Positions 6,578-34,061 of a stretch of 35,902 nucleotides of DNA are shown piece after piece. Source of the stretch: Spirochaetota bacterium (GTDB lineage: Bacteria > Spirochaetota > UBA4802 > JAFGJZ01). A program made the position numbers and the translations under genes. The notes beneath the pieces are model-generated. The model worked only from the letters and a program-made list of their open reading frames with translations. It searched no databases and had not been told where the DNA came from. Each line of letters starts with the position of its first letter. The stretch's first letter is position 1. The DNA lies in the NCBI GenBank assembly GCA_029554345.1, contig JAKPJF010000128.1, positions 1 through 35,902 of the forward strand, written 5' to 3'.

Positions 6578-9500
6578 ATGAAATTTAAGCCGATGGCCAT
6601 TATAGGTATATTCTCATTGTTGATGTGCGGTTTTCTTTCCGCCGTAAATGATGACGGAATGAGTGTTTTTGGAGATTCCGAAAATATCTCTTCTTCTGAT
6701 GTTTTTAAGGGCGAAGTCTTTGATTCCGTCACGAAGAAGCCGGTGAAAAAAGCAAAAATTGAATTTAAAAATATAAATCTTGGAGTAGGTTATTATACCG
6801 CCGAGACTGATTCTTCCGGAAAATTTGAAATCAAGGGATATATAAAAAACATAATTTACCGCGTGGCAGTGAGCGCGGATGGTTATGTTAACTTTTCTTC
6901 AACCGCATCAATGGACTCTGATAAAATGAAAATATTTCTTGCTCCGGAATGCCGCATTTTAGGCGCTGTGAGCGATTCGGCCGGTAAAAAAATCGAAGGC
7001 GTAGATGTTAGAATTTCTTCATCATACGGTTATGATGAAGCGGATGAATATGATGATTATAATGTTTCTTCTTCCGGTACACGAACCAAGCCGGTTGAAA
7101 CGACATCTTCGGGAGCTTATTCTTTCGTCAAGCTTCCAGCCGGTTCATATAATGTGACTTTTTCAAAAGCCGGATATATTTCTGAAACCGTGCAGGTTAG
7201 AAATATCAAACACGGCGAATATTTTGATCTAAACATGGTTTTGTTCCGTCCGTCAACAATCACCGGAAAGATAAATATATCCGAGCTGAATGTTCCTGCT
7301 GTTAATGTTGAAATATATGCAGAGGGGAAAGCCGTTCATTCGGCGGTTACATTTGATGACGGAACATATCTTCTTTCGGACATGAAACCGGGTGTTTATA
7401 CTGTCAGGACTAATCATTCGGGATTTTTCGAAAAGAAAATTGATAAGCTTAATTTGAAAGAAGGCGAAGAAATCAAGAATATCGATTTTACGGTAGTGCC
7501 TAAGAAAGCCGAGGTTGATGTTTCTTCATACCGATATGTTTTTTCACCCGGAACGACGGTCGCGTTCGAGATGCGTACGTTCAGAATAGAAACTGCAAAT
7601 GTTTCCATATACAAGGTTCCGGTAAGTTTTTTTACCAAGGGCATTCATGATCCTCATTCCGTTGACGTGAAGGCAAACGGTTTTGAAATCCATTCGTCAT
7701 GGAAGGAGTCTATAAGAGAATTTTCTCCGTTTGAATGGCGCTATCAGACGCTGGAAATAACGAAGCCTCTTCCGACAGGCGGATACTGCATCGAAGTTAA
7801 AGGCGAGAACGGAGTAAAATCGAGAAAATTCTTTACAGTTACTTCAGTCGGCGTAGTCGCCAAGCGTTCTCCTTCATCGCTATTTGTTTACTCGAGCAGT
7901 CTTGTTTCAAATGCTCCTGTCAAGGGAACGGAAGTCTATGTTTATAAACGCAAAAAATCAAATGATGATTATTATGATATCAACCGTATAGAAAAGCTTC
8001 CTGCTGATTTTGTGACAAAAGCTGTTACCGATGAAAAAGGAATCTGTCAGATAAAGATGAAGTCAAATGAAAGCATGATTATTCTGGCTGTAGCGCCTGA
8101 CAGAAGTTTCGCTTTTTGTGAAAGCACTTCCGCATCGCAGTCGCAGAGCGAGATGAATAAATTCTATATTTACACGGACCGTCCAGTTTACCGTGCAGAT
8201 GACACTGTTTTTTACAAGGTTATCGCAAAAAAGCGTTCTGAAGTTATGACTCCAATCGCGGGTAAAACTTTTGCTTATAGAATCATTAACACAAACAATG
8301 ACAAAATAATAGAAGAGGGCAATCTTTCTCTTGATGAATGGGGAACTTTCAATTCAAAAATAAAAATTCCGGAATCGGCAGGTCTCGGAAGATTCGAATT
8401 GCGCGTAGGAGACTCGCTTGATAATCTTTTTGCACGCGGCTTTTTCTATGTCGAGCAGTATCGCAAGCCCGAGTACAAGGTTGAAGTTCTTCCTTCAAAG
8501 GAATTTTTTCTAAACGGCGAAAGCGCGGAATTTAAGGTCGATGCAAAATACTTTTTCGGCGCGCCTCTCAAAAATGCCGTGGTCAGATACAGATTCTATG
8601 AAACACGCGATGATTTTTCGATTAACGGCGACAGATATTCGCAGAGTACGGTTTATGACAAGCTCAGACTCGAAGGCGAAAAGAATCTTGATGATAACGG
8701 AATTGCCGTATTGCGCATTGATACGGGGAAGCTTCCTTTCGACAGAAAAATAACACTCGAAGCAACTGTTACGGATGCGTCTAATATAAGCATTACTTCC
8801 TCCGGTAATGTCCGCATAGGCAGAGGCGAATTTTATATCAGAATAAGTCCCGAAAAATCATTTTATGATTCATCGGAAAATAAAAAGATATTGGTCGAAA
8901 CTTTTTCACAGTCCGGAAAACCCGTGAGCGCTGATGTTGAAATAAATCTTTTCAGATATATATGGAAACCTTATCATCGTGTTTATGTGCATGAAGGTAA
9001 GGCGTTCTTTACGAAAAAGATTTCAACTGATTCGAAAGGAAAAGCGGAACTTGTTATACCTGCCGCGAAGGATTCATCAGGCGAATTCGATATTATGGGA
9101 AGCGCGAAAGACCGTTTCGGAAATGAAATAAAAGCGTCAAAAGTAATTCTCATATATTCCGCTTCTTCGGATACGAAATCGAAATTCGGAAACCTTGAAC
9201 TTGAAATAGACAAGAAGAAAATCGATAAGCCTGAAGAAATAACTATTCTTCTGAAAAGCCGTTTTACGGATGCCAATGTGTGTCTAACGGTCGAAGGCCG
9301 CGACGTCTATGCTTCGCGTCTTGTAAAAATGAATTCAAACGTGATTGCGGTAAAACTTCCTGTAAAAGACAGTTATGCGCCGAATTTTTTCGTGACGGCT
9401 ACCATGCAGAGGGGCCGCGCGCTCTATACTGCCCGTGAACAGGTTACGCTTCCGGAAAAAGATACATCTATGAAAATTTCGATTTCAAGCGATAAGGAAA

Positions 9501-11920
9501 AATATTCTCCCGGTGAAAAAGCGAAAATAAAAATCAAGGCAGTCGATGTAAACGGAAAACCGGTTAAAGCGGATCTTTCTCTTGCCGCGGTAGATGAATC
9601 GATTTTCTCGATACGTTATGATCACACGCCCGAGATAAACGGATTTTTTTATTCGAAGATTTCAAACTGGGTTTCGACGACTTATTCTTATCCGATCAAT
9701 CTATATGCCGGTGCAGGCAAGGATGGAAAGACTAAGGTAAGAAGCCGCTTTGAGGATACAGCTTTCTGGAAGGCCGATATTAAAACCAATGCGTCCGGCG
9801 AGGCGTCGATCGAAATTAATCTTCCAGATAATCTGACCACCTGGCGTTTGACAGCGCGCGGTCATGATAAGAGCGGAATGGCCGGAGAAAGTAGACAGAA
9901 ATTCCTAGTGTCGCAGGATCTTGTTTCTAGAATCGGAAAACCGCGTTTTTTAATTGAAGGTGATGAAATAGATCTCCTTGGAATTGTGACAAGCAATACT
10001 CCGCGCGGTCTTTCCAGTGTAGGTTTGAAATTTTCAGCTGACGGAAGTGAGCTTAAGACTAATGATTTGTCAAAAGTTTCTCTTCCTGGATTCGGAACCC
10101 ATTCGCTTTCATATAAGTATAATGTGCCGCAGAAAGAATCTATTGATTTGCAATTTGATTCTTATGCCGACAAGGAAGCTTCGGATGCTGTTAAATATTC
10201 CGTTCCGGTTGAAAAACGCGGAAGCCGTTACCGCCTTTTCGGAATTGCGGAAACAGGCAAAAAAACCGAACTGAAATTTTTAAAAGATTCATCGGACTTT
10301 GAATTTGTGCCTGAGCGCGCCGTTGTGACTTTTAATCCGAGTCCGGTATTTCAGATGCTTAACGCATGCAATTATCTTGTCGAATATCCTTACGGTTGTA
10401 TTGAGCAGACAATCAACAGATTCATTCCGCTTCTTGCAGTTCATACTTTGATAAATGAAAAAGGCGCCGGACATCTGATTGATGATAAATACAAAAAAAA
10501 TCTCAACGCCTTTGTGCTTGAAGGGATTTCGCGTGTCCAGTCGATGCAGAATGATGACGGAAGTTGGGGATGGTTTGCCGGCGACAGAGGAAACGAGTTT
10601 CTGACATGTTACGCGCTTTCATCTCTGAAGAAAGCTGAGCAAAAAGGTTTTAACATATCGAAGCAGACCGTTGACAGCGGTCTTGCGGCAGTATCAAGAA
10701 TGATGAATGCAAAAAATAATAAAGGATATGTCAGCGGCTATGCCGAACTCGCGAATCTGCTTTATGTTTATTCTTTGTGCGGCAGATGGAATCATGAGCT
10801 TTATGCGGAATTGTCGAAACGCAAACCGGTTTCATACGAATCAGCTTTTATTATAAATGCTCTATCTGTTACAAATGCCGAACGCGATAAAGCGTTTAAA
10901 TCAAAGAATCTCAATATTATTGTTGAGATTAAGAAAGCGAAGAAGGCGCTTCTTGATTCTGCAGGCAAAGACGAATACGGCATCGTGTGGAAGAGCAGTT
11001 ATAATCCGTGGTCATGGCAGGGAAATGATTCCGAGATGACTGCGCATGCGCTTTCAGCTCTTTGCCGTCTCAAAGGAAATGATGACTTGAAAGCTCAGAT
11101 CGTGCTTTCTCTTTCCAAAAGAGCGAACGGCGGAATATGGGTGAGTACAAAAGGAACCGGAACGGTTATTCTTTCGCTTTGTGATTATTTTGACGGTGTG
11201 AAAGATATCGGCGCGGAGGCTTCTGAAATCAAAGTTTCAGTTAACGGCAAAAATCTGGTAAACATCAAGTATGATCCGGCTGATAAGAGTGCCGTTTCGG
11301 ATAAGCTTACGAGATATGTGAAACTTTCGGGAGAAAAAGGGCCTGTTGTGTTTGAGAGTTCATCGGCCGGAGGAAAGGGTTCAACTGTCAGCGTGACCGT
11401 GGAGGGCACACTCAAATTCAATCCTAAAGGTTTTACTTCCATATTTAAGTCAAATGAGCGGTCTCTTTCCGCGCTGAATAACGGAATAGATGTCAGCAGA
11501 ACATTTTACAGGCTCAAACGCATATTTGATCTGAACGGTGCAGAATATCTCATTCCTGAAATGATAAAACCTGAGAATGGAATTAAGAGCGGAGATGAAA
11601 TTATGGTCAAGGTACGTTTTTCTTCAAAGGAAAACCTTGATTATGTTGCTCTCGAGGATTTTTTGCCAAGCGGTTTTGAAGTGAGCAGAGTTGACGCTTA
11701 CGGCGGAATAAACCAGTACAGCAGAGCGGAAAGATGGGATAACCGTATGGTATTCTTCTTTTCGGAACTGAAAGCGAAACAGGTATATGAACTTGCCTAT
11801 ACTGTGCGTGCCGAGCTTTCGGGAAAATTTATGGTCAGACCGTCCATTGCAGGATGTATGTATGAGCCGTCTGTTCAGGGATGGAGTTCGCCAGCCGAGA
11901 TTGAAGTGAAAAAGAAATAG
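6578..11920 (+). CDS. Alpha-2-macroglobulin-like protein with thioester
   Basis: The 1780-residue protein begins with a signal sequence (residues 1-22). Three carboxypeptidase-regulatory-like beta-sandwiches follow (about 44-300, e.g. GEVFDSVTKKPVKKA, GKINISELNVPAV). Next is the macroglobulin core: an MG2-type strand IYTDRPVYRADDTVFYK (about 531-547), the A2M block FWKADIKTNASGEASIEINL with TTWRLTARG (about 1063-1095), the thioester C1274-I-E-Q1277 in YPYGCIEQT, a helical thioester domain with DDGSWGWF, and a C-terminal receptor-binding-like domain with LPSGFEV. Such proteins trap proteases: cleavage of a bait region exposes the thioester, which bonds to the attacker. No penicillin-binding protein PbpC partner is adjacent, unlike the Escherichia coli-type locus. 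The start follows GGAGGAAAT. It is alone in its transcript and ends at a terminator. Confidence 0.93.
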   Translation: MKFKPMAIIGIFSLLMCGFLSAVNDDGMSVFGDSENISSSDVFKGEVFDSVTKKPVKKAKIEFKNINLGVGYYTAETDSSGKFEIKGYIKNIIYRVAVSADGYVNFSSTASMDSDKMKIFLAPECRILGAVSDSAGKKIEGVDVRISSSYGYDEADEYDDYNVSSSGTRTKPVETTSSGAYSFVKLPAGSYNVTFSKAGYISETVQVRNIKHGEYFDLNMVLFRPSTITGKINISELNVPAVNVEIYAEGKAVHSAVTFDDGTYLLSDMKPGVYTVRTNHSGFFEKKIDKLNLKEGEEIKNIDFTVVPKKAEVDVSSYRYVFSPGTTVAFEMRTFRIETANVSIYKVPVSFFTKGIHDPHSVDVKANGFEIHSSWKESIREFSPFEWRYQTLEITKPLPTGGYCIEVKGENGVKSRKFFTVTSVGVVAKRSPSSLFVYSSSLVSNAPVKGTEVYVYKRKKSNDDYYDINRIEKLPADFVTKAVTDEKGICQIKMKSNESMIILAVAPDRSFAFCESTSASQSQSEMNKFYIYTDRPVYRADDTVFYKVIAKKRSEVMTPIAGKTFAYRIINTNNDKIIEEGNLSLDEWGTFNSKIKIPESAGLGRFELRVGDSLDNLFARGFFYVEQYRKPEYKVEVLPSKEFFLNGESAEFKVDAKYFFGAPLKNAVVRYRFYETRDDFSINGDRYSQSTVYDKLRLEGEKNLDDNGIAVLRIDTGKLPFDRKITLEATVTDASNISITSSGNVRIGRGEFYIRISPEKSFYDSSENKKILVETFSQSGKPVSADVEINLFRYIWKPYHRVYVHEGKAFFTKKISTDSKGKAELVIPAAKDSSGEFDIMGSAKDRFGNEIKASKVILIYSASSDTKSKFGNLELEIDKKKIDKPEEITILLKSRFTDANVCLTVEGRDVYASRLVKMNSNVIAVKLPVKDSYAPNFFVTATMQRGRALYTAREQVTLPEKDTSMKISISSDKEKYSPGEKAKIKIKAVDVNGKPVKADLSLAAVDESIFSIRYDHTPEINGFFYSKISNWVSTTYSYPINLYAGAGKDGKTKVRSRFEDTAFWKADIKTNASGEASIEINLPDNLTTWRLTARGHDKSGMAGESRQKFLVSQDLVSRIGKPRFLIEGDEIDLLGIVTSNTPRGLSSVGLKFSADGSELKTNDLSKVSLPGFGTHSLSYKYNVPQKESIDLQFDSYADKEASDAVKYSVPVEKRGSRYRLFGIAETGKKTELKFLKDSSDFEFVPERAVVTFNPSPVFQMLNACNYLVEYPYGCIEQTINRFIPLLAVHTLINEKGAGHLIDDKYKKNLNAFVLEGISRVQSMQNDDGSWGWFAGDRGNEFLTCYALSSLKKAEQKGFNISKQTVDSGLAAVSRMMNAKNNKGYVSGYAELANLLYVYSLCGRWNHELYAELSKRKPVSYESAFIINALSVTNAERDKAFKSKNLNIIVEIKKAKKALLDSAGKDEYGIVWKSSYNPWSWQGNDSEMTAHALSALCRLKGNDDLKAQIVLSLSKRANGGIWVSTKGTGTVILSLCDYFDGVKDIGAEASEIKVSVNGKNLVNIKYDPADKSAVSDKLTRYVKLSGEKGPVVFESSSAGGKGSTVSVTVEGTLKFNPKGFTSIFKSNERSLSALNNGIDVSRTFYRLKRIFDLNGAEYLIPEMIKPENGIKSGDEIMVKVRFSSKENLDYVALEDFLPSGFEVSRVDAYGGINQYSRAERWDNRMVFFFSELKAKQVYELAYTVRAELSGKFMVRPSIAGCMYEPSVQGWSSPAEIEVKKK

Positions 11921-18982: not shown

Positions 18983-19528
18983 TTAATAAAACACAACTTC
19001 GCTGTCATTAACAAACAGCTGCGAAATTGCGCTGTTTCCTTTTGCGTCAACTGAAACTTCAACTGTTGTTGATTTCATATTGGATTCTATGTAATGGCCT
19101 TGATTCTGCGGTACAAAATAATCCTCCACGCCGTAGCGAATGGTGATGGAGTTGTCATACGCGTATTCAACTTTTCCGCGGATAACTGCCGGATAACGGC
19201 CTGATAGTGTTTTGATGTCGGAGCTGACTTCAGCCGCGTTGTAATACGGAGCGGATGCGTCCTTTTCAAGAGCGACGTAAATAGTCTGATCCATGCTGAA
19301 AGATGTGCCGGTCTTTACCTTCAGCTTTTCAGTATCTATGTTTGTGATTTCGTATCTGAGAATTACATAGTCGCCGCTGAAAAGACTCCTCGGATCTACG
19401 GGTATGCACTTGAGTAATATTTTTGTCCCTCCGGAGAGAAGTCTTTCCTGTTTGAAAATCATCGACCCGAGCACTGCAAGCTGTGCCGCTACCAGTATGA
19501 AGAATAATATTTTTTTATATTTTGTCAT
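18983..19528 (-). CDS. GDYXXLXY-domain protein
   Basis: A 181-residue protein with one N-terminal membrane segment (ILFFILVAAQLAVLGSMIF) and the signature GDYVILRYEI (residues 52-61) that names the family. An extracytoplasmic beta-rich domain follows, containing YPAVIRGKVEY and GVEDYFVPQNQGHYIE. These proteins are nearly always encoded beside or fused to a DUF2157 membrane protein, as here; the function of the pair is not established. The ATG overlaps the stop of the upstream DUF2157 gene by four bases, so they are translationally coupled. Confidence 0.88.
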   Translation of the reverse strand: MTKYKKILFFILVAAQLAVLGSMIFKQERLLSGGTKILLKCIPVDPRSLFSGDYVILRYEITNIDTEKLKVKTGTSFSMDQTIYVALEKDASAPYYNAAEVSSDIKTLSGRYPAVIRGKVEYAYDNSITIRYGVEDYFVPQNQGHYIESNMKSTTVEVSVDAKGNSAISQLFVNDSEVVFY

Positions 19529-21438
19529 ATCGTTTCACCTTTAATCATTTCAGCCGCTTTAATTTTGCGCGATAGCGAACGCCGTCTGTTTTCAAGAATA
19601 ATTCCGGCGGTTATGCCGATGAGACCCGTGCAAAGAAGAAATATCGAGCCGGACAGCATATCCCAGAACAGATCAAAATACCTCGTCAGTATGTGAAGCA
19701 CGAATGCGCAAACCATTATGTTAAGAAGCGCCTTTGACTGAATGACGGAACTGTAAAACATATATATAGAAGAAAAAATGACAAGCAGTGAATTGAATAG
19801 CATGGAATAAACAATCCACGAAGTGTCCGGACCTGCTATAAAAAGCGCAGTTAGAGTAAAGACTGAAACCAGCCCGGCGAGATAGACGATGATGCGGTTG
19901 TTCTTGAGAGTTTTGACGAGCCAAACGAAAAGGCCTGCCGCGATTACGGAAAAAAGAATTATCAATATTACAACAATTCTGTTCGCGCTGAAAATTGAAC
20001 GCTGTCCGATTATTTCAAACGAAGCGGCGTATACTGATATCCACATCATTGCCGCGCACAAAGCGTGAATGACAGCCGGAGAATATTTGACACCGCGTTT
20101 TTTCGCGAGGTTTTCGACGAGAACATTGAGAAGAAGGCAGACGACTGCAAAGATGATGAATCCTGCAAGATATGCTACTTTATATTTTTCTGAGATGAAA
20201 GCGTAAATTACGAAACCGAATCCTTTGACTATAATTGCCGAAAACGCAAAAATGTACGGGAGTATCGTATTGAAAATATCTTTCTTTTCTGCTGTGTGAG
20301 AATAATATAGAAAAAAGAAAAAGAGGGCAGCGATCACGCAGTGAAAGCTTATCATTCGAACCTGCAAATCTCCCATCGGCAGAAAAAATACAAGAGCCGG
20401 GAAAGCGCATGCAGCGGTTAAAAATTTAACGGGTTTTCCGCTTTTTCTTATCAGGTAAATCAATAAGGCGGATATTGCGATGAATGCGGTATAGATTGAT
20501 GAATATTTTATACTTACCCCGAATGACGCGAATATTCCGGCTTCGATTTTGCCGAAAGGCCATGACATGGCAAGAAAAGGTAATATAAATATCAGCCATC
20601 CTAAGACGGACATGAGGTAACTCACGGGCCTGAAAAGCTCTTTATCTCTGAAGTACGATCCGGCACAAAGAAGCATCGCTCCGAAAGGAAGATTTAATAG
20701 TCCTGCTTGAAAAATCATTACTTCAAAACTGGTTTTGTAAGAATAGCCTGGAATGACGGACTGATAATAATAAAATATAAGAAAGCAGAGCGACGCGATG
20801 ATGCCGGGTACATCTTTCAAGCGGATATATAAGAAAGCTGTCAATGCGATGAATAGTAAAAATAAGTAGGCAGGATTATCATATACTGCGAATTCCCAGC
20901 AGTTCCATATAAAAAAGAGAAGTGAGGCGATGTAGAGTCCGAAGCGTTCGCGCATGAGAGCCGCTATGAGAAAAACTCCCGCAGCCCATGCAAGAATTCC
21001 GTTTGTCGGATGAGCGCTGATGTGATAAATCTGCGCGACAAGCATAATCGCCGCGCCGTATGAAACCATACCGAGTACGAGAAGCGATCTTCCGATGAGG
21101 CGGCTTCGGTTTTCGCTGAAAAGATACCATGCTGATGCAGAGTAGCTTGCGATGACAAGAAAAAACACCTGGATGAGCTTAATGCTCGGCGGCATTTTCT
21201 TCCAGTTAGATGCATAAAATATAATTATTCCTGCGGTGAGGCAGAGAACGGCGAGACCCATGATTACAGAATTGAGATTGAGTGATTTTTTCGAAGATTT
21301 ATTTTTCTCGCGGGATTCTGCTTCGACGGCATAGAGTGATTCAATTTGATTCTGCTGCTCGTGTGAAATTATTCCCTGCTCGGTCCATTTGCGGACTTCG
21401 CTTATCAGTTCTCTGATGAAGAAAGAATTTTTTGCCAT
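19525..21438 (-). CDS. DUF2157/DUF4401 polytopic membrane protein
   Basis: The protein has about 637 residues. The start MAKNSFFIREL (ATG 21438, GGGGCGG just upstream) is preferred over an ATG six codons earlier. Residues 1-40 form the soluble DUF2157 head with KWTEQGIISHEQQNQI, then come about 14 hydrophobic segments (for example VIMGLAVLCLTAGIIIFY, then AAIMLVAQIYHIS, and near the end LLCTGLIGITAGIIL). The final GIILENRRRSLSRKIKA is basic and cytoplasmic. The ALxxGxxxFYASNWKKMPP segment matches the DUF2157 hallmark. Function unknown; co-occurrence with GDYXXLXY suggests an envelope role. It diverges from the gene at 21690 over about 250 AT-rich bases. Confidence 0.87.
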   Translation of the reverse strand: MAKNSFFIRELISEVRKWTEQGIISHEQQNQIESLYAVEAESREKNKSSKKSLNLNSVIMGLAVLCLTAGIIIFYASNWKKMPPSIKLIQVFFLVIASYSASAWYLFSENRSRLIGRSLLVLGMVSYGAAIMLVAQIYHISAHPTNGILAWAAGVFLIAALMRERFGLYIASLLFFIWNCWEFAVYDNPAYLFLLFIALTAFLYIRLKDVPGIIASLCFLIFYYYQSVIPGYSYKTSFEVMIFQAGLLNLPFGAMLLCAGSYFRDKELFRPVSYLMSVLGWLIFILPFLAMSWPFGKIEAGIFASFGVSIKYSSIYTAFIAISALLIYLIRKSGKPVKFLTAACAFPALVFFLPMGDLQVRMISFHCVIAALFFFFLYYSHTAEKKDIFNTILPYIFAFSAIIVKGFGFVIYAFISEKYKVAYLAGFIIFAVVCLLLNVLVENLAKKRGVKYSPAVIHALCAAMMWISVYAASFEIIGQRSIFSANRIVVILIILFSVIAAGLFVWLVKTLKNNRIIVYLAGLVSVFTLTALFIAGPDTSWIVYSMLFNSLLVIFSSIYMFYSSVIQSKALLNIMVCAFVLHILTRYFDLFWDMLSGSIFLLCTGLIGITAGIILENRRRSLSRKIKAAEMIKGETI

Positions 21439-21689
21439 GCCGCCCCGTTTCTGCATTGAATTGACTGTAATGCAGTGTGTATGTATTGGAATATAATATT
21501 TATATTTATTTTGCGTTTGTCCAGCAGTTTTTCAATAAGAAATTAGTCTGTTGAGAAAGTTTGAAATATTGATTGCATTTTGATTAAAAAATTCTTTTTA
21601 ATTATTACATGATCATATTGATAAATTGTTGGAAATATATGTATCCGGAAATTATTGGTTTGTTCAAAATATAATTGAAGGGAAACGGT

Positions 21690-22580
21690 ATGCAGGATAA
21701 GGAATATGCGGCATTTGGCCCATGGATTTATGAAATTGACGAAGAGCATCAAATGCCGCCGATTTTTAAAGAACATTTTACCCAGGATAATAATCATACC
21801 ATATTATTTAAAATACCCGTAAATATGGAAAGACGGAGTCTCAAGCCCGGAATGCGGATGTATGATTACGTTATCGGTGCATATTCCGATTACGTTTTCA
21901 TCATGAAAAGAAACGGGAATGATGTAGTATCGGAAAAAGTTTATTATTCTGAAATTGCCGCAATTGAAAATTCAATAGATATATTAAGAGGGACTTTCGT
22001 TATTTATTTGAATTCGGAATTATATTGTATCAACTATAATGCAGTTTCAAAGGACATCGTAGATAAGCTGGTTGAAATTGTCAGAATAAATTTGGTAGAA
22101 ACGGAAATTGATTTGTCTGATTGTAGTAAAAGCCTATCAGAATATAATCCAAGTATTGGTTTCAGTAATATATACGCATCGTTGTCAAAAAATGTTGAGA
22201 ATATCCGATTTGTTGCATATCAGCCTAAAAAAAGAATAACGCATAAAATAAAAAAAATATTCGATAGAGTTGCCGGTTTTATATTGCTTCCCGAACTGAC
22301 TGAATGGATGATGCTGGCCACTCCAAAAGATATTATTATTGTATCATGCGGAAAGAGTATAAATTTCAGGAATTTCCCGGTTCATAAAAGATCATATTTG
22401 CATGTGCCGTATAAGAGCATAACCGCAATAAGTGTTGAATATGATGAAAGCTATAAGGATGTTCTTCAGTATGAAGTTGTTGCCGGTAATAATAGTTTCA
22501 TTATAAAGACTAGTACGCAAAATTCTTGTATCAATGAATTGAATAATTTTATTGCAGTAATCAGGACACTTAATGCTTGA
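21690..22580 (+). CDS. Hypothetical protein, 296 residues
   Basis: I do not recognise this family. The ATG at 21690 with GAAGGGAAA upstream is preferred over an in-frame TTG at 21675. The sequence alternates short beta-strands (MYDYVIGAYSDYVFIMKR, GTFVIYLNSELYCINY, KSITAISVEYDE, YEVVAGNNSFIIKT) with a C-terminal helix (CINELNNFIAVIRTL). A central hydrophobic stretch (VAGFILLPELTEWMMLATPKDIIIVSC) may be a membrane hairpin or a buried helix. Two copies of a PH-like fold (about 40-140 and 200-296) would fit the strand-helix pattern, but this is a guess. The gene is AT-richer than its neighbours and lies upstream of the moxR operon, separated by about 200 bases. Confidence 0.65.
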   Translation: MQDKEYAAFGPWIYEIDEEHQMPPIFKEHFTQDNNHTILFKIPVNMERRSLKPGMRMYDYVIGAYSDYVFIMKRNGNDVVSEKVYYSEIAAIENSIDILRGTFVIYLNSELYCINYNAVSKDIVDKLVEIVRINLVETEIDLSDCSKSLSEYNPSIGFSNIYASLSKNVENIRFVAYQPKKRITHKIKKIFDRVAGFILLPELTEWMMLATPKDIIIVSCGKSINFRNFPVHKRSYLHVPYKSITAISVEYDESYKDVLQYEVVAGNNSFIIKTSTQNSCINELNNFIAVIRTLNA

Positions 22581-22781: not shown

Positions 22782-23711
22782 GTGGATGAAAAAATAACAA
22801 GGCTTATTAACAGCATTTCTCGGGTTTTTGTCGAAGATGAACCGGTTTGTGAAAACTGCATTCTTGCGCTTATTTCAGGGCTTCATGTTCTTATTGAAGA
22901 TTTTCCCGGAGTCGGAAAGACGACACTCGCAAGAGCCATTGCCGAAGCAAGCGGTCTTGATTTCGGACGAATTCAGTTTACGCCGGATATCCTTCCGGGA
23001 GATGTTCTCGGCATGAGTATGTGGGTTTCCGGAAAAAATGATTTTGTATTCAGGGAAGGACAATTGCATCATCAGATAATAATCGCCGATGAACTTAACC
23101 GGGCATCTCCCCGGACTCAGTCGGCGTTTCTTGAAGCGATGCAGGAAGAACGTATAACGGTAGACGGAGTTACGCATCTTCTTCCGTCTCCTTTTTTTGT
23201 TATAGCAACGCAGAATCCTGAAAATTTTTCAGGAACTTTCCCTCTTCCCGAAGCGCAGCTCGACAGATTCGGAATATCCCTTTCAATAAATTATCCGAAC
23301 ATTGAAAATGAAGTGCGTATTCTGAACACTTTTTGTGAATCAAATCTGATAAAAGCGGAAAAGATTACTTCCACGGATGAAATTATATCCATAAGGGAAT
23401 CAGTCAGGAAGATTCCGGTTTCTCAGAAGATATTTTATTACATAGCTGAAATAGTTTCAAAAAGCAGATCGCGCAATGACGTCAAGCTTGGACTTAGTCC
23501 GCGGTCGTCGCTTCATCTCCTGTATGCGTCGCAAGGCAGGGCATTTATGGAAGGAAGGGACTTCGTGATTCCTGAAGATGTTTTATATTCAGCTCCGATA
23601 GTATTGCCGCACAGATTAGTTCTTTCTCCTGACGCGCGTTTTTCCGGAATTACTCCGAAAAAAATTATTTCCGAAATTGTGTCTTCGGTAAAAATTCCGA
23701 CCGGATTATAA
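22782..23711 (+). CDS. MoxR-family AAA ATPase
   Basis: A 309-residue AAA+ protein. Walker A is G43-VGKTT (FPGVGKTTLARAIA), Walker B IIIADE (99-104) with ELNRASPRTQSAFLEAMQEERITVDG, sensor-1 ATQNP, and an LPEAQLDRF arginine-finger region; this matches MoxR exactly. A C-terminal lid domain follows from about 200. MoxR ATPases act as chaperones or assembly factors, usually with a DUF58 protein and often a VWA or transglutaminase protein, as in this operon. The start is a GTG with GGGAGGAG upstream. The stop is two bases before the DUF58 start. Confidence 0.95.
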   Translation: MDEKITRLINSISRVFVEDEPVCENCILALISGLHVLIEDFPGVGKTTLARAIAEASGLDFGRIQFTPDILPGDVLGMSMWVSGKNDFVFREGQLHHQIIIADELNRASPRTQSAFLEAMQEERITVDGVTHLLPSPFFVIATQNPENFSGTFPLPEAQLDRFGISLSINYPNIENEVRILNTFCESNLIKAEKITSTDEIISIRESVRKIPVSQKIFYYIAEIVSKSRSRNDVKLGLSPRSSLHLLYASQGRAFMEGRDFVIPEDVLYSAPIVLPHRLVLSPDARFSGITPKKIISEIVSSVKIPTGL

Positions 23712-23713
23712 TT

Positions 23714-24874
23714 GTGATAAGAATTAATTTCAGAGCGGCAATATTGTATCTGATTTCTCTTTCTCTGCTGTATCTGGCGGCTATGAGTTTTGCCGGCGCG
23801 GTTGCAGTTATATATTATGCCTTATTGTTTTTTCTTCTGATTTCTCTGGGGCTTTTTATTTTCAATTCACTCTCATTGCGCTTTATAGAAATATTTTCAA
23901 ATGAACATCCATTGAGAGGGGAAACTATTACCTATAAACTTGCCCTGTCCAATGAATATTTTTTGCCTATCGTAGAATTTTGTATCAAATTCAGAGAAAC
24001 GGCCGGAGCCGGAGAAAATTTCGAGAAGAAGATAAATTGCTTCATAGGCGGCAAAAAATATTTCGAGAAAGAATATTCTGTCATTAGCGAACATCGCGGA
24101 GTGTACGAACTGGGTATTGAACGCGCGGAGATCATGGATATGGCTGGAATACTTGCGTATTCGCCGAAGATTTTTTTTAGAACCTTTTATGTAAGGCCTA
24201 GAATTTTCCGCCCGGATAATACTGATTTTGCCGAAAGCCTTAAAGATTCAAGCGGCGGAAACTTTCACGGAGGTGCGGAAATAGATGATCAGTTTTCATC
24301 TATAGAAGAATATAGGGAAGGGATGGAAACTAAAAGAATATTCTGGAAGAAATATTTTTCTACGGGCAATATGTATGTCAAATTATTCCATGGGTCTTCG
24401 CGTAAAAGTATTGATGTATATGCGGATATGAGAAGATCGGATGCTCATGGATTCAGAACCAACGAGGATCTTATTCTTGAATCATTGCTTTCTGTTTCTG
24501 CTCATTTGCTGAAGAGCGGAACAAAATTTTCCGTTTATGCTGAAGGAGAAAAAGTTCTCGGAGAAAACTGCGGAATGAAACAGTTTGATAAATTTTATGA
24601 GTCGACTGTGTTTATTTCTTTTAACGGACAAATGTCGCCTTATGCGGGTATTCTTTCCGAAAGCAGAACGGGAATAGCAAAAGATGCGATAGTTATATCA
24701 TCCAGCAGTGATTATTTATGCGCGGATGTTCCTTATCCTGAAAAAATATTGATTCTATATGTTTCTGCAAATCCTCAACCTGAAGATGAAAGGTACTTGT
24801 CCGTGCTTGAATCAAGAGGAATCCGTGTAAAACTTATAAGCTCTTTTGAAGACATTTCAAAGGTCTTTCAATGA
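23714..24874 (+). CDS. DUF58 domain protein
   Basis: The 386-residue protein has an N-terminal pair of membrane segments (about 8-45) followed by a beta-rich stretch. The DUF58 motif EYREGMETKRIFWKKYFSTG (about 197-216), matching the family's R-x-Y-x-x-G-D...R-x-I-x-W-K-x-S signature, leads into VKLFHGSSRKSIDVYADM, a VWA-like strand. DUF58 proteins are encoded with MoxR ATPases and are probably their membrane-bound partners. A GTG start lies two bases after the moxR stop, and its last four bases (ATGA) overlap the next gene, so all three are translated as one coupled operon. Confidence 0.87.
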   Translation: MIRINFRAAILYLISLSLLYLAAMSFAGAVAVIYYALLFFLLISLGLFIFNSLSLRFIEIFSNEHPLRGETITYKLALSNEYFLPIVEFCIKFRETAGAGENFEKKINCFIGGKKYFEKEYSVISEHRGVYELGIERAEIMDMAGILAYSPKIFFRTFYVRPRIFRPDNTDFAESLKDSSGGNFHGGAEIDDQFSSIEEYREGMETKRIFWKKYFSTGNMYVKLFHGSSRKSIDVYADMRRSDAHGFRTNEDLILESLLSVSAHLLKSGTKFSVYAEGEKVLGENCGMKQFDKFYESTVFISFNGQMSPYAGILSESRTGIAKDAIVISSSSDYLCADVPYPEKILILYVSANPQPEDERYLSVLESRGIRVKLISSFEDISKVFQ

Positions 24875-26967
24875 AAAATGTTATCAAAAACCCGGAAGGA
24901 ACACGGCGTCTTATTGTATTATTTGTTTTTTCGCTTCTTGCCTCTGTTATTTTTCCTTTTATTATAAGCCGTTATGTCAACGGCAAAATGGTCTATCCTG
25001 TATTATATTCCGCGTCGGTTGTTTTGAATCTGGTGCTATTTTTAAGTTTTTTCTGCGGGGCCATCAAGAGAAAAATTATTCTCGGTTTTTTATATGCCGT
25101 TTATCTGTTTTCCGGGGTAACGCTTATTCTTTTTATTCTCATGATTCCATTTGATGCGTATAAAGCATGGATAAACGTTGATATTAAGCCGGAAGGAACA
25201 ATTTCAACAATTTTTGCAGCTGCATCTCTCATCCTGTCGGTAATTGTTTCGGGTTTTGTCTATAGACTGGGAATCATAAAAACATTTGTTCTTCATCTTT
25301 TTGCTAATTCTGCAGTGCTCTTTGTATTGATAAATTCATACGGGATTGCTTTTGCATCTTTATCTATTTTGTTTTTCGGAATTATTTTTATTCCTGAGAG
25401 AACAAATTATTTCGGGCAAAAATTTAAATTCTTTTTTATGATGTTTATCTCTGTAATTATTGCTTCATTCGTTTTGTCTTCAAGCATTAAAAAAGAGCAG
25501 GGTTGGCTGACTTCATATCTGATTTCTGAAAATTTTAAGGGATTTGTTCTGGAAACTTTTCCAAATTCCAAAGAAGCCGGAGCGATAAGCGGTTATGGGC
25601 TATTTTACCGCGAAAATGTTTTTGCGAATAAGCCGAGATTTTCGGAATCAGAAATATTCAGGCTTTCGATAGAAAACGGAGAACCTTTCAAAGAATACTA
25701 CATAAAGATACGGACGTATTCGTACTACGGCGGAACTTTATGGTCAGCGCAAAGCAGAAAAAAATCCGAAAAAGTTTCTTTTGAAAAGTATAACATTTCT
25801 TTCGGTTCGTCTGAAAGTTATTCAAACATCAAGCTCTTTGTATCCGGCGATTATCTTCCATATATTCCGTATATGCTTTCATCGGAAAAAATTGTAGTTA
25901 AATCGCAATCTGCAAATTCCATCTCTCCTGCAAGTGAATACGGCGAATATATTTCTTCGGGGCCGCTTCTGAAAAATGATACTGTTTCTATCACATTAAA
26001 TCCGGATTATAATAAAACTATAAATTACGGAGGTATGAATCATTTTGTCGAATTGCTTGGCAGTAAATTGCCGTCAGATGAATTGATTCCGTATTTGCAA
26101 ATTCCTGAAAACCCCCGTTTGAAAAAACTTGCTGACAGTTTGAAGTCGAAGGACAAAGGCGCCGTCGGGACAGTTGAAAACATTTTGAATTATTTATCTG
26201 ATGAAATGACATTGTCGGCAAATCTGAATCTCCCTGAAATAGATGAGGATATCGTTGAACATTTTATAGATGAAAAGAAAGGCTATTCCGTGCATTTCGC
26301 TACTGCGATGGCTGTACTGCTGCGTTACTGCGGTATTCCGTCGAGATATGTTGAAGGATTCAGAATAAGTTCAGAAAGTAATAAGAAGTTTTATTTAGTG
26401 ACTGCATTCAATTCGCATTCATGGACGGAAATATATGCAGACGGAATAGGGTGGATAAGAATAGATCCTTTGACATATTTTTTTCATCCTAAAGCTGGAA
26501 AGGCAGCTAAAATAGAAAGAGATCCTGAAACTGAGAAATATATTTCGGCGATGGAAGGAAGATTAAAAAAGAGAAAGCAAATTGAATACTTGAAGAAAAA
26601 AAATGTCCTCATCATTTCCATGATTGCTGCCGCGGCTGCTTTGTTGTATGTAATATTTAGATTCATAAAATGGTTCATGTTCCGTAAAAAAATATTTTGC
26701 CTGCCGCGGGATAAGAGACTTGCGAAGGAACTCCGCAAATTGACGGCTCTGTTCTCAGATGAAAATATTTTTCACCCTTCTTTAACGGGATGGAATAAAT
26801 GGTTCAATCAAGCAGAAAAAAAATATCCCGATTTGAAAAAATTGGATGAAATTAGAAATATTGTTCTAAGAAGTGTCTATTTTTCAGGGAATGATGCTGA
26901 ATCAGTAAAGTCTCTTCGTAATGCTGTCCGCGCTCTGAAAGCCGAAAAGAAAGACAAGTTAGATTGA
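24871..26967 (+). CDS. Membrane transglutaminase-like protein, catalytic Cys replaced
   Basis: This 698-residue protein has about six N-terminal membrane helices, an extracytoplasmic region (about 200-560) with a transglutaminase-core domain, a C-terminal membrane helix (about 572-592) and a cytoplasmic tail. It resembles the TgpA/DUF3488 architecture paired with MoxR and DUF58 elsewhere. The TG core reads GYSVHFATAMAVLLRYCGIPSRYVEG. Relatives have G-x-C-x-x-F/Y here, but residue 473 is Ser (TCC). H516 (NSHSWTEIY) and D532 (GWIRIDPL) are conserved. The protein may therefore be an inactive pseudo-transglutaminase or a serine variant. The start overlaps the DUF58 stop by ATGA. Confidence 0.88.
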   Translation: MKNVIKNPEGTRRLIVLFVFSLLASVIFPFIISRYVNGKMVYPVLYSASVVLNLVLFLSFFCGAIKRKIILGFLYAVYLFSGVTLILFILMIPFDAYKAWINVDIKPEGTISTIFAAASLILSVIVSGFVYRLGIIKTFVLHLFANSAVLFVLINSYGIAFASLSILFFGIIFIPERTNYFGQKFKFFFMMFISVIIASFVLSSSIKKEQGWLTSYLISENFKGFVLETFPNSKEAGAISGYGLFYRENVFANKPRFSESEIFRLSIENGEPFKEYYIKIRTYSYYGGTLWSAQSRKKSEKVSFEKYNISFGSSESYSNIKLFVSGDYLPYIPYMLSSEKIVVKSQSANSISPASEYGEYISSGPLLKNDTVSITLNPDYNKTINYGGMNHFVELLGSKLPSDELIPYLQIPENPRLKKLADSLKSKDKGAVGTVENILNYLSDEMTLSANLNLPEIDEDIVEHFIDEKKGYSVHFATAMAVLLRYCGIPSRYVEGFRISSESNKKFYLVTAFNSHSWTEIYADGIGWIRIDPLTYFFHPKAGKAAKIERDPETEKYISAMEGRLKKRKQIEYLKKKNVLIISMIAAAAALLYVIFRFIKWFMFRKKIFCLPRDKRLAKELRKLTALFSDENIFHPSLTGWNKWFNQAEKKYPDLKKLDEIRNIVLRSVYFSGNDAESVKSLRNAVRALKAEKKDKLD

Positions 26968-27097: not shown

Positions 27098-29953
27098 ATG
27101 AAAACTGTCAGATTAGCATCAATAGCCGTTCTTTTTGTGTCGCATAGTATCTTCGCCGATCAGGCGGGGGATATTCTAAAAACGGCTGATGCGTTTAAGG
27201 AAAAGAAAGACTATGTTTCCGCAGAGAAGATGTATCTTCAGGCAGAGGAAGCAGATCCGGAAAGCGGTTTCATCACCGCGCGCAAAGCGCAGTTTTTTCT
27301 TTTGACACTTAAAGATTATGCAAGAGCTTCGGCGGCGTATGAATCTGCCTATAGCAAAGGCTTCAGGGAATCATGGCTTTTTATTCAGGCAGGCAACTCC
27401 TGGCGCTATCTTAAAAATTATGAAAATTCAGAGAAGTGGTTTCGTCTCGGAATTTCTGAATACAATCAAAAAATCGAATCTGCGAAAAAGGCGGGCAAAC
27501 CGCTTCAGAAATTAAATGACGGACTTGTTTCTATCTATGCGCAGTTTTGTTCGGCGATGATAGACTTGAAAAAATTCAGCAATGCGGATGCCGTTGCATC
27601 GGAATGCATTAAGCGGTTCACGGATACAGCGAACAGCTCGTTTCTCAATTATGCGGCGCGAAGTAATTATTGGCGTTCAGTAGAATCTTTCGGCGCCGGT
27701 GATTTTGAAAGCGCTGCAGATTACGCCGAAAAAGCCCGGAATCTGGCTGTTCGTGCCGGAAAGGATTCAGCTGTTCTTGCCGATGAGTTTGCAACTCTTA
27801 TCAAGGTGATAAAAGCCGGCGAAAAAAGCAAATCGGTAAAACCGCTCTGTGTTCACCGTATGAAAATATTAATTATTCCCGAGACTGATGCGAAAGATGA
27901 AGGTAATGCCGTACACATAAAAAGCTCTGTGACTGATGAAGATGTTTTTATGACTAATCTGTCTGCAAAATTTGTTAAGCGTTTTATTGAGGCGTCAACA
28001 GGCGGAAAGCTCGGCATGGATATAGTTGTCGATAAACCATCGATTAAACTTACACGCATAAAAGATAATTCTGATATAGAGACGGAAAACAGAAAAAACC
28101 GAACACCCGATCTCGATTATTTTGTTTCTCAGAATGAGGATTATTTTAAAAAAGCTGTTAATGATTTTGATACTTTTGTGCTGATCTGGAGCGCGAAAGA
28201 ATTCAATGTTGCTAACGGAGGACAGCGGCAGTTCAAATTTGCTTCCGCTGATGTTTCTGTCATGCGCGGATACAATCAAATCACGGCTGAAAGGATATCA
28301 TATAATGGGCCTGATCTTCTGCTTCATGAATTTTTTCATACAATTGAAAAGCTCGGCCGCGTTCCGGTACAGCACGGATATTACAAAGAGAACAGGCATA
28401 ACTATCCCGAATGGAAGGGAGTTAACGGAAACGATTACTACTTCTGGCAGCTTTCGGAAAATATACCGAAAATTCTCAGAGATAAATTCAGTGAAGATTA
28501 TTCATCATTCAGTTTCATCAAAAAATATCCGGCTGATTTTACGCGTCCTGTGCGTGCAGTAAGAGTACGTCCTGAACTTCCGGTATTCAGAAAGATTGAC
28601 CGTCTTGCAGCGGACGAGCGTTCCGCTGTTTACAGGACAGGCGTTATAGATTCTGCCGCTGAAAATGCTCCGAAAGATTCTGCTGCGGCGATGTTTGCAA
28701 AGCCTGAGGATGCTGCAGTAAAGGAATTCGTGAAGGCTCTTCTTGCCGGTGTTGAAGATCCTTTTAGAAAGGCGAAAATTATTCATGACTGGATTACTCT
28801 CAATATCGCCTATGATTCTGATCTATTGATCCGTCTGCGTACTGACGCGGATCCCGACGGAGGAAAAGACGCGTTGAGCGCTCTCAAATACCGCCGCACT
28901 AACTGCGCGGGATTAGCCGATCTTTACAAGATGCTCGGTCGATATGCAGGACTTGATGTACGCTATGTGACCGGAAGCATCAAAACCGGCGGAACGCCGG
29001 ACGGCGGTCTCATGAGTCATGCGTGGAATATCGTGAAGATTGAAGGAAAAGAATATATCGTCGACTGCAGTCCGGACAGCAGAAAGTATTATACAGGAAA
29101 GAAGACGGGTGCTTTGGCTGATTATGCTTCGCGCAGTGATCATCTTTTTATTCATCCCGAGGCAAAGCGGATCGCTTATCTCGCTTCAAATCCAAAAGAT
29201 CAGATCGCACTTCCGCCGCTTGATTTCAATCAGTTCAGCAGACTTCCGCGATTTGCTGTAGCATCATACAAGTACGGCATCAAATTCAAAAAGCACACAA
29301 ATGCCGTGTATTCAGTTATCCGCAAAACGAAACCGGGAGGCGGCATCGAAGTGTCGGATCTTTATACTCTTGAAAGTCAGCCGCTTGAAATTGAATGTGA
29401 AGCGCCGGACGATTCTTTCGCTGATATAACTCTTCTTGATGAAGCAGGTAAAAAAATAGACTACTATACCTCGTCACAGCGAAACGGCGGAAGTTTTATA
29501 TTCATGGTTTCCGCTCCGCGTGCGGGAATATTTACAGTAGTTATTAATGCCCGCTCGTTATCACAGCCTGAGCGCGTAAATGAGATATACCGCTTCGCAG
29601 TTAATTCAGCCGTTGCAATGAAGCCGTGTGCACCTGCTGTTCAGCGAGGGCATTACGCTGATATTCTTGCGATAAAATCCGTTTCTGTAAATCGAACTGC
29701 CGATAAGAAGCGTATCGAAATTGAAATTGATCATCCTTCGCAGACCGTGATTGTTTCAATAGTCCGTGATGCACAGGATAGAAATCAGACAGGAAGTGCT
29801 AAAAAAAAGACGACTGACACAGGAACGATGTTCACCTATGATATCTCTCCCGACAGCAAAGATATAATTGTAATATCAGGCCGCCGCAGTGATGATACCT
29901 CGGGAAGGGGAAATCAGCGTTTGCTTACCATTCGTTCGGAGGATGTTAAATAG
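27098..29953 (+). CDS. Secreted TPR, HExxH and transglutaminase protein
   Basis: A 951-residue exported protein with a signal peptide MKTVRLASIAVLFVSHSIFA. TPR-like repeats fill about 25-240 (KKDYVSAEKMYLQAEEADP, KFSNADAVASECIKRF). A middle domain (about 250-470) carries HEFFH at 410-414 (LLHEFFHTIEKLG), the HExxH zinc motif of zincin peptidases. A later transglutaminase-like domain (about 570-670) has an intact C603 (TNCAGLADLYKML), H641 (SHAWNIV) and D656 (IVDCSPD). The C-terminal 250 residues are beta-sandwich. The domain order is unusual. It lies 130 bases after the Ser-variant transglutaminase gene, on the same strand, possibly in the same regulon. The substrate is unknown; cell-wall or protein crosslinks are possible. 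Confidence 0.82.
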   Translation: MKTVRLASIAVLFVSHSIFADQAGDILKTADAFKEKKDYVSAEKMYLQAEEADPESGFITARKAQFFLLTLKDYARASAAYESAYSKGFRESWLFIQAGNSWRYLKNYENSEKWFRLGISEYNQKIESAKKAGKPLQKLNDGLVSIYAQFCSAMIDLKKFSNADAVASECIKRFTDTANSSFLNYAARSNYWRSVESFGAGDFESAADYAEKARNLAVRAGKDSAVLADEFATLIKVIKAGEKSKSVKPLCVHRMKILIIPETDAKDEGNAVHIKSSVTDEDVFMTNLSAKFVKRFIEASTGGKLGMDIVVDKPSIKLTRIKDNSDIETENRKNRTPDLDYFVSQNEDYFKKAVNDFDTFVLIWSAKEFNVANGGQRQFKFASADVSVMRGYNQITAERISYNGPDLLLHEFFHTIEKLGRVPVQHGYYKENRHNYPEWKGVNGNDYYFWQLSENIPKILRDKFSEDYSSFSFIKKYPADFTRPVRAVRVRPELPVFRKIDRLAADERSAVYRTGVIDSAAENAPKDSAAAMFAKPEDAAVKEFVKALLAGVEDPFRKAKIIHDWITLNIAYDSDLLIRLRTDADPDGGKDALSALKYRRTNCAGLADLYKMLGRYAGLDVRYVTGSIKTGGTPDGGLMSHAWNIVKIEGKEYIVDCSPDSRKYYTGKKTGALADYASRSDHLFIHPEAKRIAYLASNPKDQIALPPLDFNQFSRLPRFAVASYKYGIKFKKHTNAVYSVIRKTKPGGGIEVSDLYTLESQPLEIECEAPDDSFADITLLDEAGKKIDYYTSSQRNGGSFIFMVSAPRAGIFTVVINARSLSQPERVNEIYRFAVNSAVAMKPCAPAVQRGHYADILAIKSVSVNRTADKKRIEIEIDHPSQTVIVSIVRDAQDRNQTGSAKKKTTDTGTMFTYDISPDSKDIIVISGRRSDDTSGRGNQRLLTIRSEDVK

Positions 29954-32804: not shown

Positions 32805-34061
32805 ATGGATAACAGAGATATTCTTGTTGTTGAAGACGATAAGATCATGTCCAAATACATTTCAGATATACTGAAAGATGAAAATTATAATGTTTCGAAT
32901 GCTTATGACGGTCTATCAGCTTTGGAAAAATATGAATCGGGAAACTACAGCGCCATTATAACAGATCTCGAAATGCCGCAGATGGACGGAATAGAACTTA
33001 TCCAAAGACTTCAGGCGAAAGAATTCCCTCCGGTAATTATTGTGAGCACAGTGAAAAATGATCCCGATACAATAATAAGCATCATGAAAATGGGAGTTTA
33101 CACCTATCTTCTGAAACCAATAAATTCGGCTGAATTGATTTTTTCGGTCAATAAGGGTTGTGAATACTCTAAGATTTTGCGGGCAAACATGGTCTATGAA
33201 AAGGAAAAAAATATCCGTTTGGAGAATCAGCTCGAATGGTACCGGTGGCGTGAAAGATTTGTCTCAGGTTCCAGGGCAGGAGCGGGAAGCAGTATCTTTC
33301 AGGGACTTCTGACGAGTTTTAATCAGGGGGCTGGATTCGGGTCAATGGTTTCCATGATTGATCTTCTTGCAGCAAACGCGAAAAAAGAAAAAGGGTATTA
33401 CAGGATAGATTCATCTTTTTTTGACGCAATAATCGATAATAATAAAATAGCCTCAAAGGCCTTGGATGTTCTAGCTTTTATAAGAGATATTATCGACAAC
33501 GGTCTTGTTCTCAAAAAGGGGAAGGCTTCAGACATTCATGATATTTTTATTTCTTCGTCAAATGAGCTCAGAAAATATTCGGACATTAAAAACCAGCATG
33601 TCATTGTCAGTGATATCAAGCCTTCTTTCGAGGAAGCCGAAATGCTTTTCAATTATGAGTCGGTGAAGAAGGTGGCTGATGAACTTTTACTGAATGCTTT
33701 CAAGTACTCGGAAAAAGATACTGATATTATAGTTCTCGCAGATATGGAAGACGGAAATTTCCGAATTTCCGTGATCAGTATGCCTGAGAAAACGGCTTAT
33801 TCCGAAAAAGGGATTTCCATAGAATATGAGAACATAATTTTTGAACCTTTCTGCCGTTTGACTAAAACCGTACAGGAATCATACCATACACTGGAATTCG
33901 GGCTTGGTTTGACTATGGTGGAAAAAATCATAAATGCTCATAAAGGTAAAATCAAACTTTACAACATAAAAGATCATGCTTTCGTGAACGGTGATCCTTC
34001 CAGGGCGGTTGAAGTAAAAGTCTGCGCCGTTATGAGTATTCCTGTTATATCGGAATCTTGA
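32805..34061 (+). CDS. Receiver domain fused to a degenerate histidine-kinase-type ATPase
   Basis: A 418-residue protein. Residues 1-120 form a CheY-like receiver with acidic E10/D11/D12, phosphoacceptor D54 (ITDLEMPQMDG), S81/T82 and K104 (YLLKP), all intact. A linker coil (about 125-150) leads to a helical region where the H-box should be (LLTSFNQGAGFGSMVSMIDLL, about 168-188), but no phospho-His is present. The C-terminal HATPase has an N-box (ADELLLNAFKYS, N297) and a late G-box (EFGLGLTMVEKIINAHKG), while the D-x-G-x-G box is not recognisable. It may be a phosphorylation-controlled binding protein rather than a kinase. The gene is single, in a degraded region. Confidence 0.82.
   Translation: MDNRDILVVEDDKIMSKYISDILKDENYNVSNAYDGLSALEKYESGNYSAIITDLEMPQMDGIELIQRLQAKEFPPVIIVSTVKNDPDTIISIMKMGVYTYLLKPINSAELIFSVNKGCEYSKILRANMVYEKEKNIRLENQLEWYRWRERFVSGSRAGAGSSIFQGLLTSFNQGAGFGSMVSMIDLLAANAKKEKGYYRIDSSFFDAIIDNNKIASKALDVLAFIRDIIDNGLVLKKGKASDIHDIFISSSNELRKYSDIKNQHVIVSDIKPSFEEAEMLFNYESVKKVADELLLNAFKYSEKDTDIIVLADMEDGNFRISVISMPEKTAYSEKGISIEYENIIFEPFCRLTKTVQESYHTLEFGLGLTMVEKIINAHKGKIKLYNIKDHAFVNGDPSRAVEVKVCAVMSIPVISES

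Follow-up and report, generated by a model that had tools for sequence, protein, structure and literature searches.

A TgpA-like protein of a Spirochaetota MoxR-DUF58 operon, putatively a retained pseudo-transglutaminase, carries serine in place of the catalytic cysteine

In a 35,902-nucleotide stretch of DNA from a Spirochaetota bacterium (contig JAKPJF010000128.1, hereafter the window), the last gene of a MoxR-DUF58-TgpA operon encodes a TgpA-like protein whose transglutaminase core has a serine at the position of the catalytic cysteine (Table 1). The original prediction, that Ser473 occupies the nucleophile position while His516 and Asp532 are kept, was borne out by the sequence and by the alignment to the GFC motif of PDB 6g49. 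New here is that Ser473 is accompanied by the loss of two more near-invariant positions, which have become Leu448 and Leu534. We consider it probable that the protein is a retained pseudo-transglutaminase of the MoxR-DUF58-TgpA envelope module, which would work by binding and not by acyl transfer.

Table 1. Features of the operon, of the transglutaminase core and of the downstream gene (window positions).
Feature	Position	Strand	Basis
MoxR-type AAA+ ATPase gene	22782..23711	+	PF07726 184.2 bits; P-loop conserved; 92% identical in same-genus genome G001
DUF58-like membrane protein gene	23714..24874	+	PF01882 13.1 bits, below its cut-off (23.4); alignable with the middle gene in related operons
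TgpA-like membrane protein gene with Cys-less transglutaminase core	24871..26967	+	PF01841 76.4 bits; operon position as in L015, L016, L186-L192
Transglut_core domain	26125..26469	+	PF01841 match, six-frame search
Leu448 (TTG); Tyr or other aromatic in relatives	26212..26214	+	Core alignments
Ser473 (TCC) at the catalytic Cys position	26287..26289	+	Sequence, alignments
His516 (CAT), kept	26416..26418	+	Sequence, core alignment
Asp532 (GAT), kept	26464..26466	+	Sequence, core alignment
Leu534 (TTG); Thr or Ser in relatives	26470..26472	+	Core alignments
Gene of a 951-aa possible partner protein with another transglutaminase core, which carries Cys; putative operon link	27098..29953	+	PF01841 52.9 bits; Cys, His and Asp motifs; kept in G001

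The reading frame of the TgpA-like gene is open over its full length of 698 codons. Transglut_core (PF01841) covers residues 419-533 and positions 2-108 of the 108 in the model, far above the cut-off of 23 bits, which makes the protein a member of the transglutaminase-like superfamily; Cys-bearing proteins of a sister genus obtain similar scores (75.6 and 77.2 bits). A phmmer search of the PDB identified Pseudomonas aeruginosa TgpA (6g49, E 7.5e-14). The Cys-His-Asp triad of a catalytic transglutaminase is absent, since Ser473 replaces the Cys. The protein has cysteines at 62, 487, and 610 only, of which Cys487 sits 14 residues past Ser473, within LLRYCGIPSR. With no Cys near 473, a replacement nucleophile, which had been named as a possible refutation, was ruled out. 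The protein is called TgpA-like because TgpA_N (PF11992) gave no match to it up to E 0.001; among three relatives tested, TgpA_N was matched by that of locus L016 only, with 22.7 bits against a cut-off of 30. PADLOC and NCBIfam returned nothing for the protein. The window genome has six PF01841 matches, with one match only to the window protein. Single-sequence structure prediction yielded a pLDDT of 37, too poor for measurement.

The genes for MoxR, the DUF58-like protein and the TgpA-like protein follow each other on one strand, in the order seen at loci L015, L016, and L186-L192, with the DUF58 model match below its cut-off, and the last two overlap by 4 bases. Both partners had been described as intact. 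This holds for MoxR, a clear AAA_3 protein, while the DUF58-like protein matches its family weakly; it aligns with its counterpart at L186 with 31% identity over 345 aa. In genome G000, a second MoxR-type ATPase gene is present on contig C32 (L064, 5369-6334) and is followed by a 451-aa ORF that is DUF58-like by eye; the ORF list holds no transglutaminase gene next to this second MoxR.

The neighbourhood is preserved in the same-genus genome G001 at approximately 85-88% nucleotide identity. The contigs of G001 end at window position 24470 and restart at 28310, so that the TgpA-like gene falls in an assembly gap. Between the window and G001, dN/dS was approximately 0.07 for MoxR and likewise approximately 0.07 for the sequenced part of the DUF58-like gene (252 codons, dS 1.2 and thus near saturation). 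MoxR and the sequenced part of the DUF58-like gene are strongly constrained within the genus.

Several other genes of the window were noted. The ORF that precedes MoxR (21675-22580, + strand) has a dS of 0.087 against G001, compared with 0.3-1.2 in its neighbours, and a dN/dS of 0.58, perhaps as a result of recent recombination or of an unusual constraint on the DNA. On the opposite strand beside the operon (18983-21456), a GDYXXLXY protein and a DUF2157 membrane protein form an adjacent pair. Further upstream (6578-11920, + strand) lies the gene of a 1780-aa alpha-2-macroglobulin-like protein with carboxypeptidase-regulatory-like domains, in which a simple pattern search found no thioester motif. 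The gene at 32805-34061 (+ strand) encodes a protein in which a histidine-kinase-type ATPase domain comes after a receiver domain.

To assess how rare the serine is, 296 phylum genomes were searched with a profile built from four proteins, and some match was obtained in 143 of them. The 30 loci returned yielded 31 core rows including the window, which was counted twice (as L068). All 29 other TgpA-like cores have Cys, and Ser is found in the window only. A strict motif in its Ser form (TCN codons) occurred in one of 383 phylum genomes, the window's own, and in its Cys form in 8 of the 383. As the strict motif finds so few TgpA-like genes, the claim of rarity rests mainly on the alignments. Neither form was found in viral contigs, which makes that search uninformative; a search of genome contigs with the window protein gave no relative, and tblastn against plasmids gave 23 distant records. 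The suggestion that Ser might mark a clade did not hold among the TgpA-like cores read, in which the residue appears as a singleton.

In the resulting alignment of 30 cores, 27 columns showed at least 85% agreement among the 29 relatives, and the window differs from the consensus at six of them. Three departures (466, 517, and 519) are in columns where other rows vary too. The remaining three are at column 448 (Tyr in 29/29 relatives, Leu in the window), column 473 (Cys in 29/29, Ser in the window), and column 534 (Thr in 28/29 and Ser in one, Leu in the window). The comparison was later enlarged with 40 weaker matches, 20 loci with context, and 20 loci around the MoxR proteins nearest to that of the window. 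After removal of 12 duplicates and of L155, in which the Cys was misaligned, 88 of 101 cores remained, of which 70 have Cys and 18, among them the window, do not. Transglutaminase proteins of G000-G003 were excluded, except for that of the window and two TgpA-like proteins of the sister genus. An aromatic residue at 448 was found in 70/70 rows with Cys as opposed to 2/18 rows without, and in one of these two (L125) it depends on the aligner, as hmmalign gives Leu. Thr or Ser at 534 was present in all 52 Cys rows that could be scored (18/70 could not), compared with 2/18 Cys-less rows. In the Cys-less rows the His is retained, as is the Asp/Glu position. The counts are descriptive and involve no significance test. 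The best tree has three changes of the Cys state, of which the starred branches force only one, and independent-pair tests were without power; the association of 448 and 534 with 473 rests on few evolutionary events. Judged by their conservation and co-loss, positions 448 and 534 may lie at the active-site pocket.

Cys-less cores occur in two further contexts. The first is a MoxR-DUF58-TgpA operon of family f24 (L154, genome G117), in which the Cys was lost by a two-residue deletion; the core reads GYHPAVLFKMLAR and is two residues short at the Cys. The second is a group of proteins of approximately 560 aa with TIG domains (L136-L145 and L148-L153, mostly f24), in which the Transglut_core Cys is replaced by Ala, by Ser in L137 and L143, and by Thr in L150. 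The TIG-domain group looks like a widespread pseudo-transglutaminase clade: position 473 varies between Ala, Ser, and Thr within the f24 clade, with the His and Asp retained. Despite their Cys-less cores, L136, L137, and L143 score 73.5-82.4 bits to PF01841. In L145 and L152 the core reads GDAYCFA, with a Cys two residues past the lost nucleophile. No match to MoxR or DUF58 was found within the stretches fetched around the f24 TIG loci.

The MoxR tree places the window and G001 together in a set of 8 rows (support 96/90), which is nested in a set of 14 (98/95). The readable TgpA partners of this set outside the genus have Cys in 10/10 cases, L193 being cut by a contig end. As the nearest relatives by MoxR carry Cys, the simplest account of Ser473 is that an ancestral Cys was lost. 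The window MoxR is 45-53% identical to its relatives in the set, as compared with 42-43% to those of G002 and G003 from its own family, a pattern that points to an ancient duplication or transfer of the operon. A search for further MoxR rows recovered one of eight loci, the G001 copy, which duplicated an existing row. L154 was placed outside the set of 14, so that as far as the MoxR tree shows its loss would be an event separate from that of the window. The TG-core tree, which is weak, puts L125 (the L154 protein) on a long branch beside the Cys-less clade with a support of 80, which may reflect long-branch attraction. Since the two trees disagree on L154, no firm number of independent losses can be given.

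We propose the following mechanism. A multi-pass TgpA-like membrane protein, the product of the last gene of the operon, would expose its transglutaminase-fold domain outside the inner membrane, by analogy with TgpA. The domain retains the fold, His516, Asp532, and the Trp/Glu/Arg framework, and with the nucleophile, the aromatic residue at 448, and the Thr at 534 gone, it could grip a peptide or envelope substrate, or hold the DUF58 protein. MoxR, a chaperone-like AAA+ ATPase, would remodel the complex. A non-catalytic binding role is favoured because the companion residues are lost and because Ala, Ser, and Thr interchange in f24 with His and Asp kept. On the other hand, the window keeps Arg492, which is present in 70/70 Cys rows and in 4/18 Cys-less rows and is thus lost in 14 of these 18 (window counted). 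By this measure the f24 clade appears more derived than the window. Moreover, departure from the conserved columns also occurs with the Cys kept, at 7 columns in L091, against 6 in the window, and at 5 in each of L066 and L093.

Alternatively, the window protein could assist the downstream 951-aa protein as a non-catalytic partner, presenting substrate to it; the 951-aa protein is probably secreted, as judged by eye from its N-terminus. The two genes are neighbours on the same strand with 130 bases between them, Cys, His, and Asp are all present in the downstream core, and the downstream gene is kept in G001 with a dN/dS of 0.12 (546 codons). However, in the 37 genomes searched, close matches to this protein were confined to the genus, the remaining ones being local and at most 35% identical, and proximity alone is weak evidence. 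We regard such a division of labour as unlikely.

Both an inactive scaffold and a serine hydrolase had been offered originally as readings of Ser473, and the scaffold emerged as the better supported of the two, as 448 and 534 are lost in the same manner as in the Cys-less cores. A serine-based hydrolase or acyl-transferase with altered chemistry, in which Ser473, His516, and Asp532 form a working triad, draws on the kept His and Asp and on precedent, since papain-like proteins with Ser for Cys are reported, some of them proposed to be active, and some C-to-S mutants are reported to be active in a negatively charged pocket (PMC10318531); inactive transglutaminase-fold proteins are reported in the same source. 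However, the Ala-bearing cores keep His and Asp too, so that the presence of these residues is no sign of catalysis, and Leu448 and Leu534 are altered as well. In addition, a serine hydrolase would call for a clade in which Ser is conserved along with the His and Asp, and such a clade was seen neither in the sample read nor with the TCN motif. A serine enzyme appears improbable. Little probability is likewise left to a sequencing or assembly error, raised earlier as a caveat, or to a single fresh substitution in an enzyme that is otherwise active. In favour of this reading, a one-base change turns TGC into TCC, the genome is a draft of 214 contigs without reads, and the copy in G001 falls in the assembly gap. 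However, the TTG codons at 448 and 534 would each need two or more base changes to reach any codon for Tyr or Thr, so that an error at Ser473 alone is an insufficient explanation, and besides the open frame, the contig order flanking the gene matches G001 on either side.

If the window protein is a pseudo-transglutaminase, catalysis might be dispensable for some MoxR-DUF58-TgpA modules. We put forward tentatively, as a possibility that we hold at less than even chances, that at least two lineages have exchanged the TgpA enzyme for a non-catalytic version whose transglutaminase domain serves as a MoxR-handled module for binding peptide or envelope, and that the aromatic residue at 448 and the Thr/Ser at 534 form a coupled signature of live and dead domains. 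A Cys-less TgpA-like protein in an otherwise standard operon could help to distinguish the module's enzymatic role from its non-enzymatic one. Furthermore, the coupled positions would offer an easy way to recognise, from sequence, inactive transglutaminase domains, to which the family model gives the scores of ordinary members. In the open literature, no account of TgpA together with MoxR was found. The records returned for a bacterial transglutaminase pseudoenzyme, or for a Treponema transglutaminase-like protein without the catalytic cysteine, held none on the subject by title or abstract, and those returned for MoxR-DUF58-transglutaminase appeared to concern other subjects only, bifidobacterial PFNA operons among them.

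Among the closest known systems is P. aeruginosa TgpA (PA2873; PDB 6g49 and 6g4h), a membrane protein with a transglutaminase-fold domain that aligns over window residues 410-540. It is reported to be encoded by the third gene of the co-transcribed cluster PA2875-2874-2873, its periplasmic part is reported to be active in vitro, and the gene is described as needed for growth and viability in P. aeruginosa (PMC3507681). TgpA has the Cys-His-Asp triad and in vitro activity, whereas in the window protein the Cys, the aromatic residue, and the Thr are changed. The Cys-bearing operons of the phylum (L015, L016, and L186-L192) share the gene order and the transglutaminase framework of the window; all those read have Cys, and in the full-protein alignment the window protein shares 19-27% identity with L017 and with the two proteins of the sister genus. 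The L154 operon resembles that of the window as a MoxR-DUF58-TgpA operon with the catalytic Cys lost, and differs in having a two-residue deletion where the window has Ser, and in carrying Glu at the Asp position. The f24 TIG proteins (L136, L137, L143, and others) share with the window the replaced Cys, the kept His and Asp, and the changes at 448 and 534, but unlike the window protein they are approximately 560 aa in size and have one N-terminal hydrophobic segment and TIG domains. EPB42 and FBXO21, eukaryotic members of the transglutaminase fold reported to be catalytically inactive (PMC10318531), have no membrane or MoxR context and serve as an analogy only.
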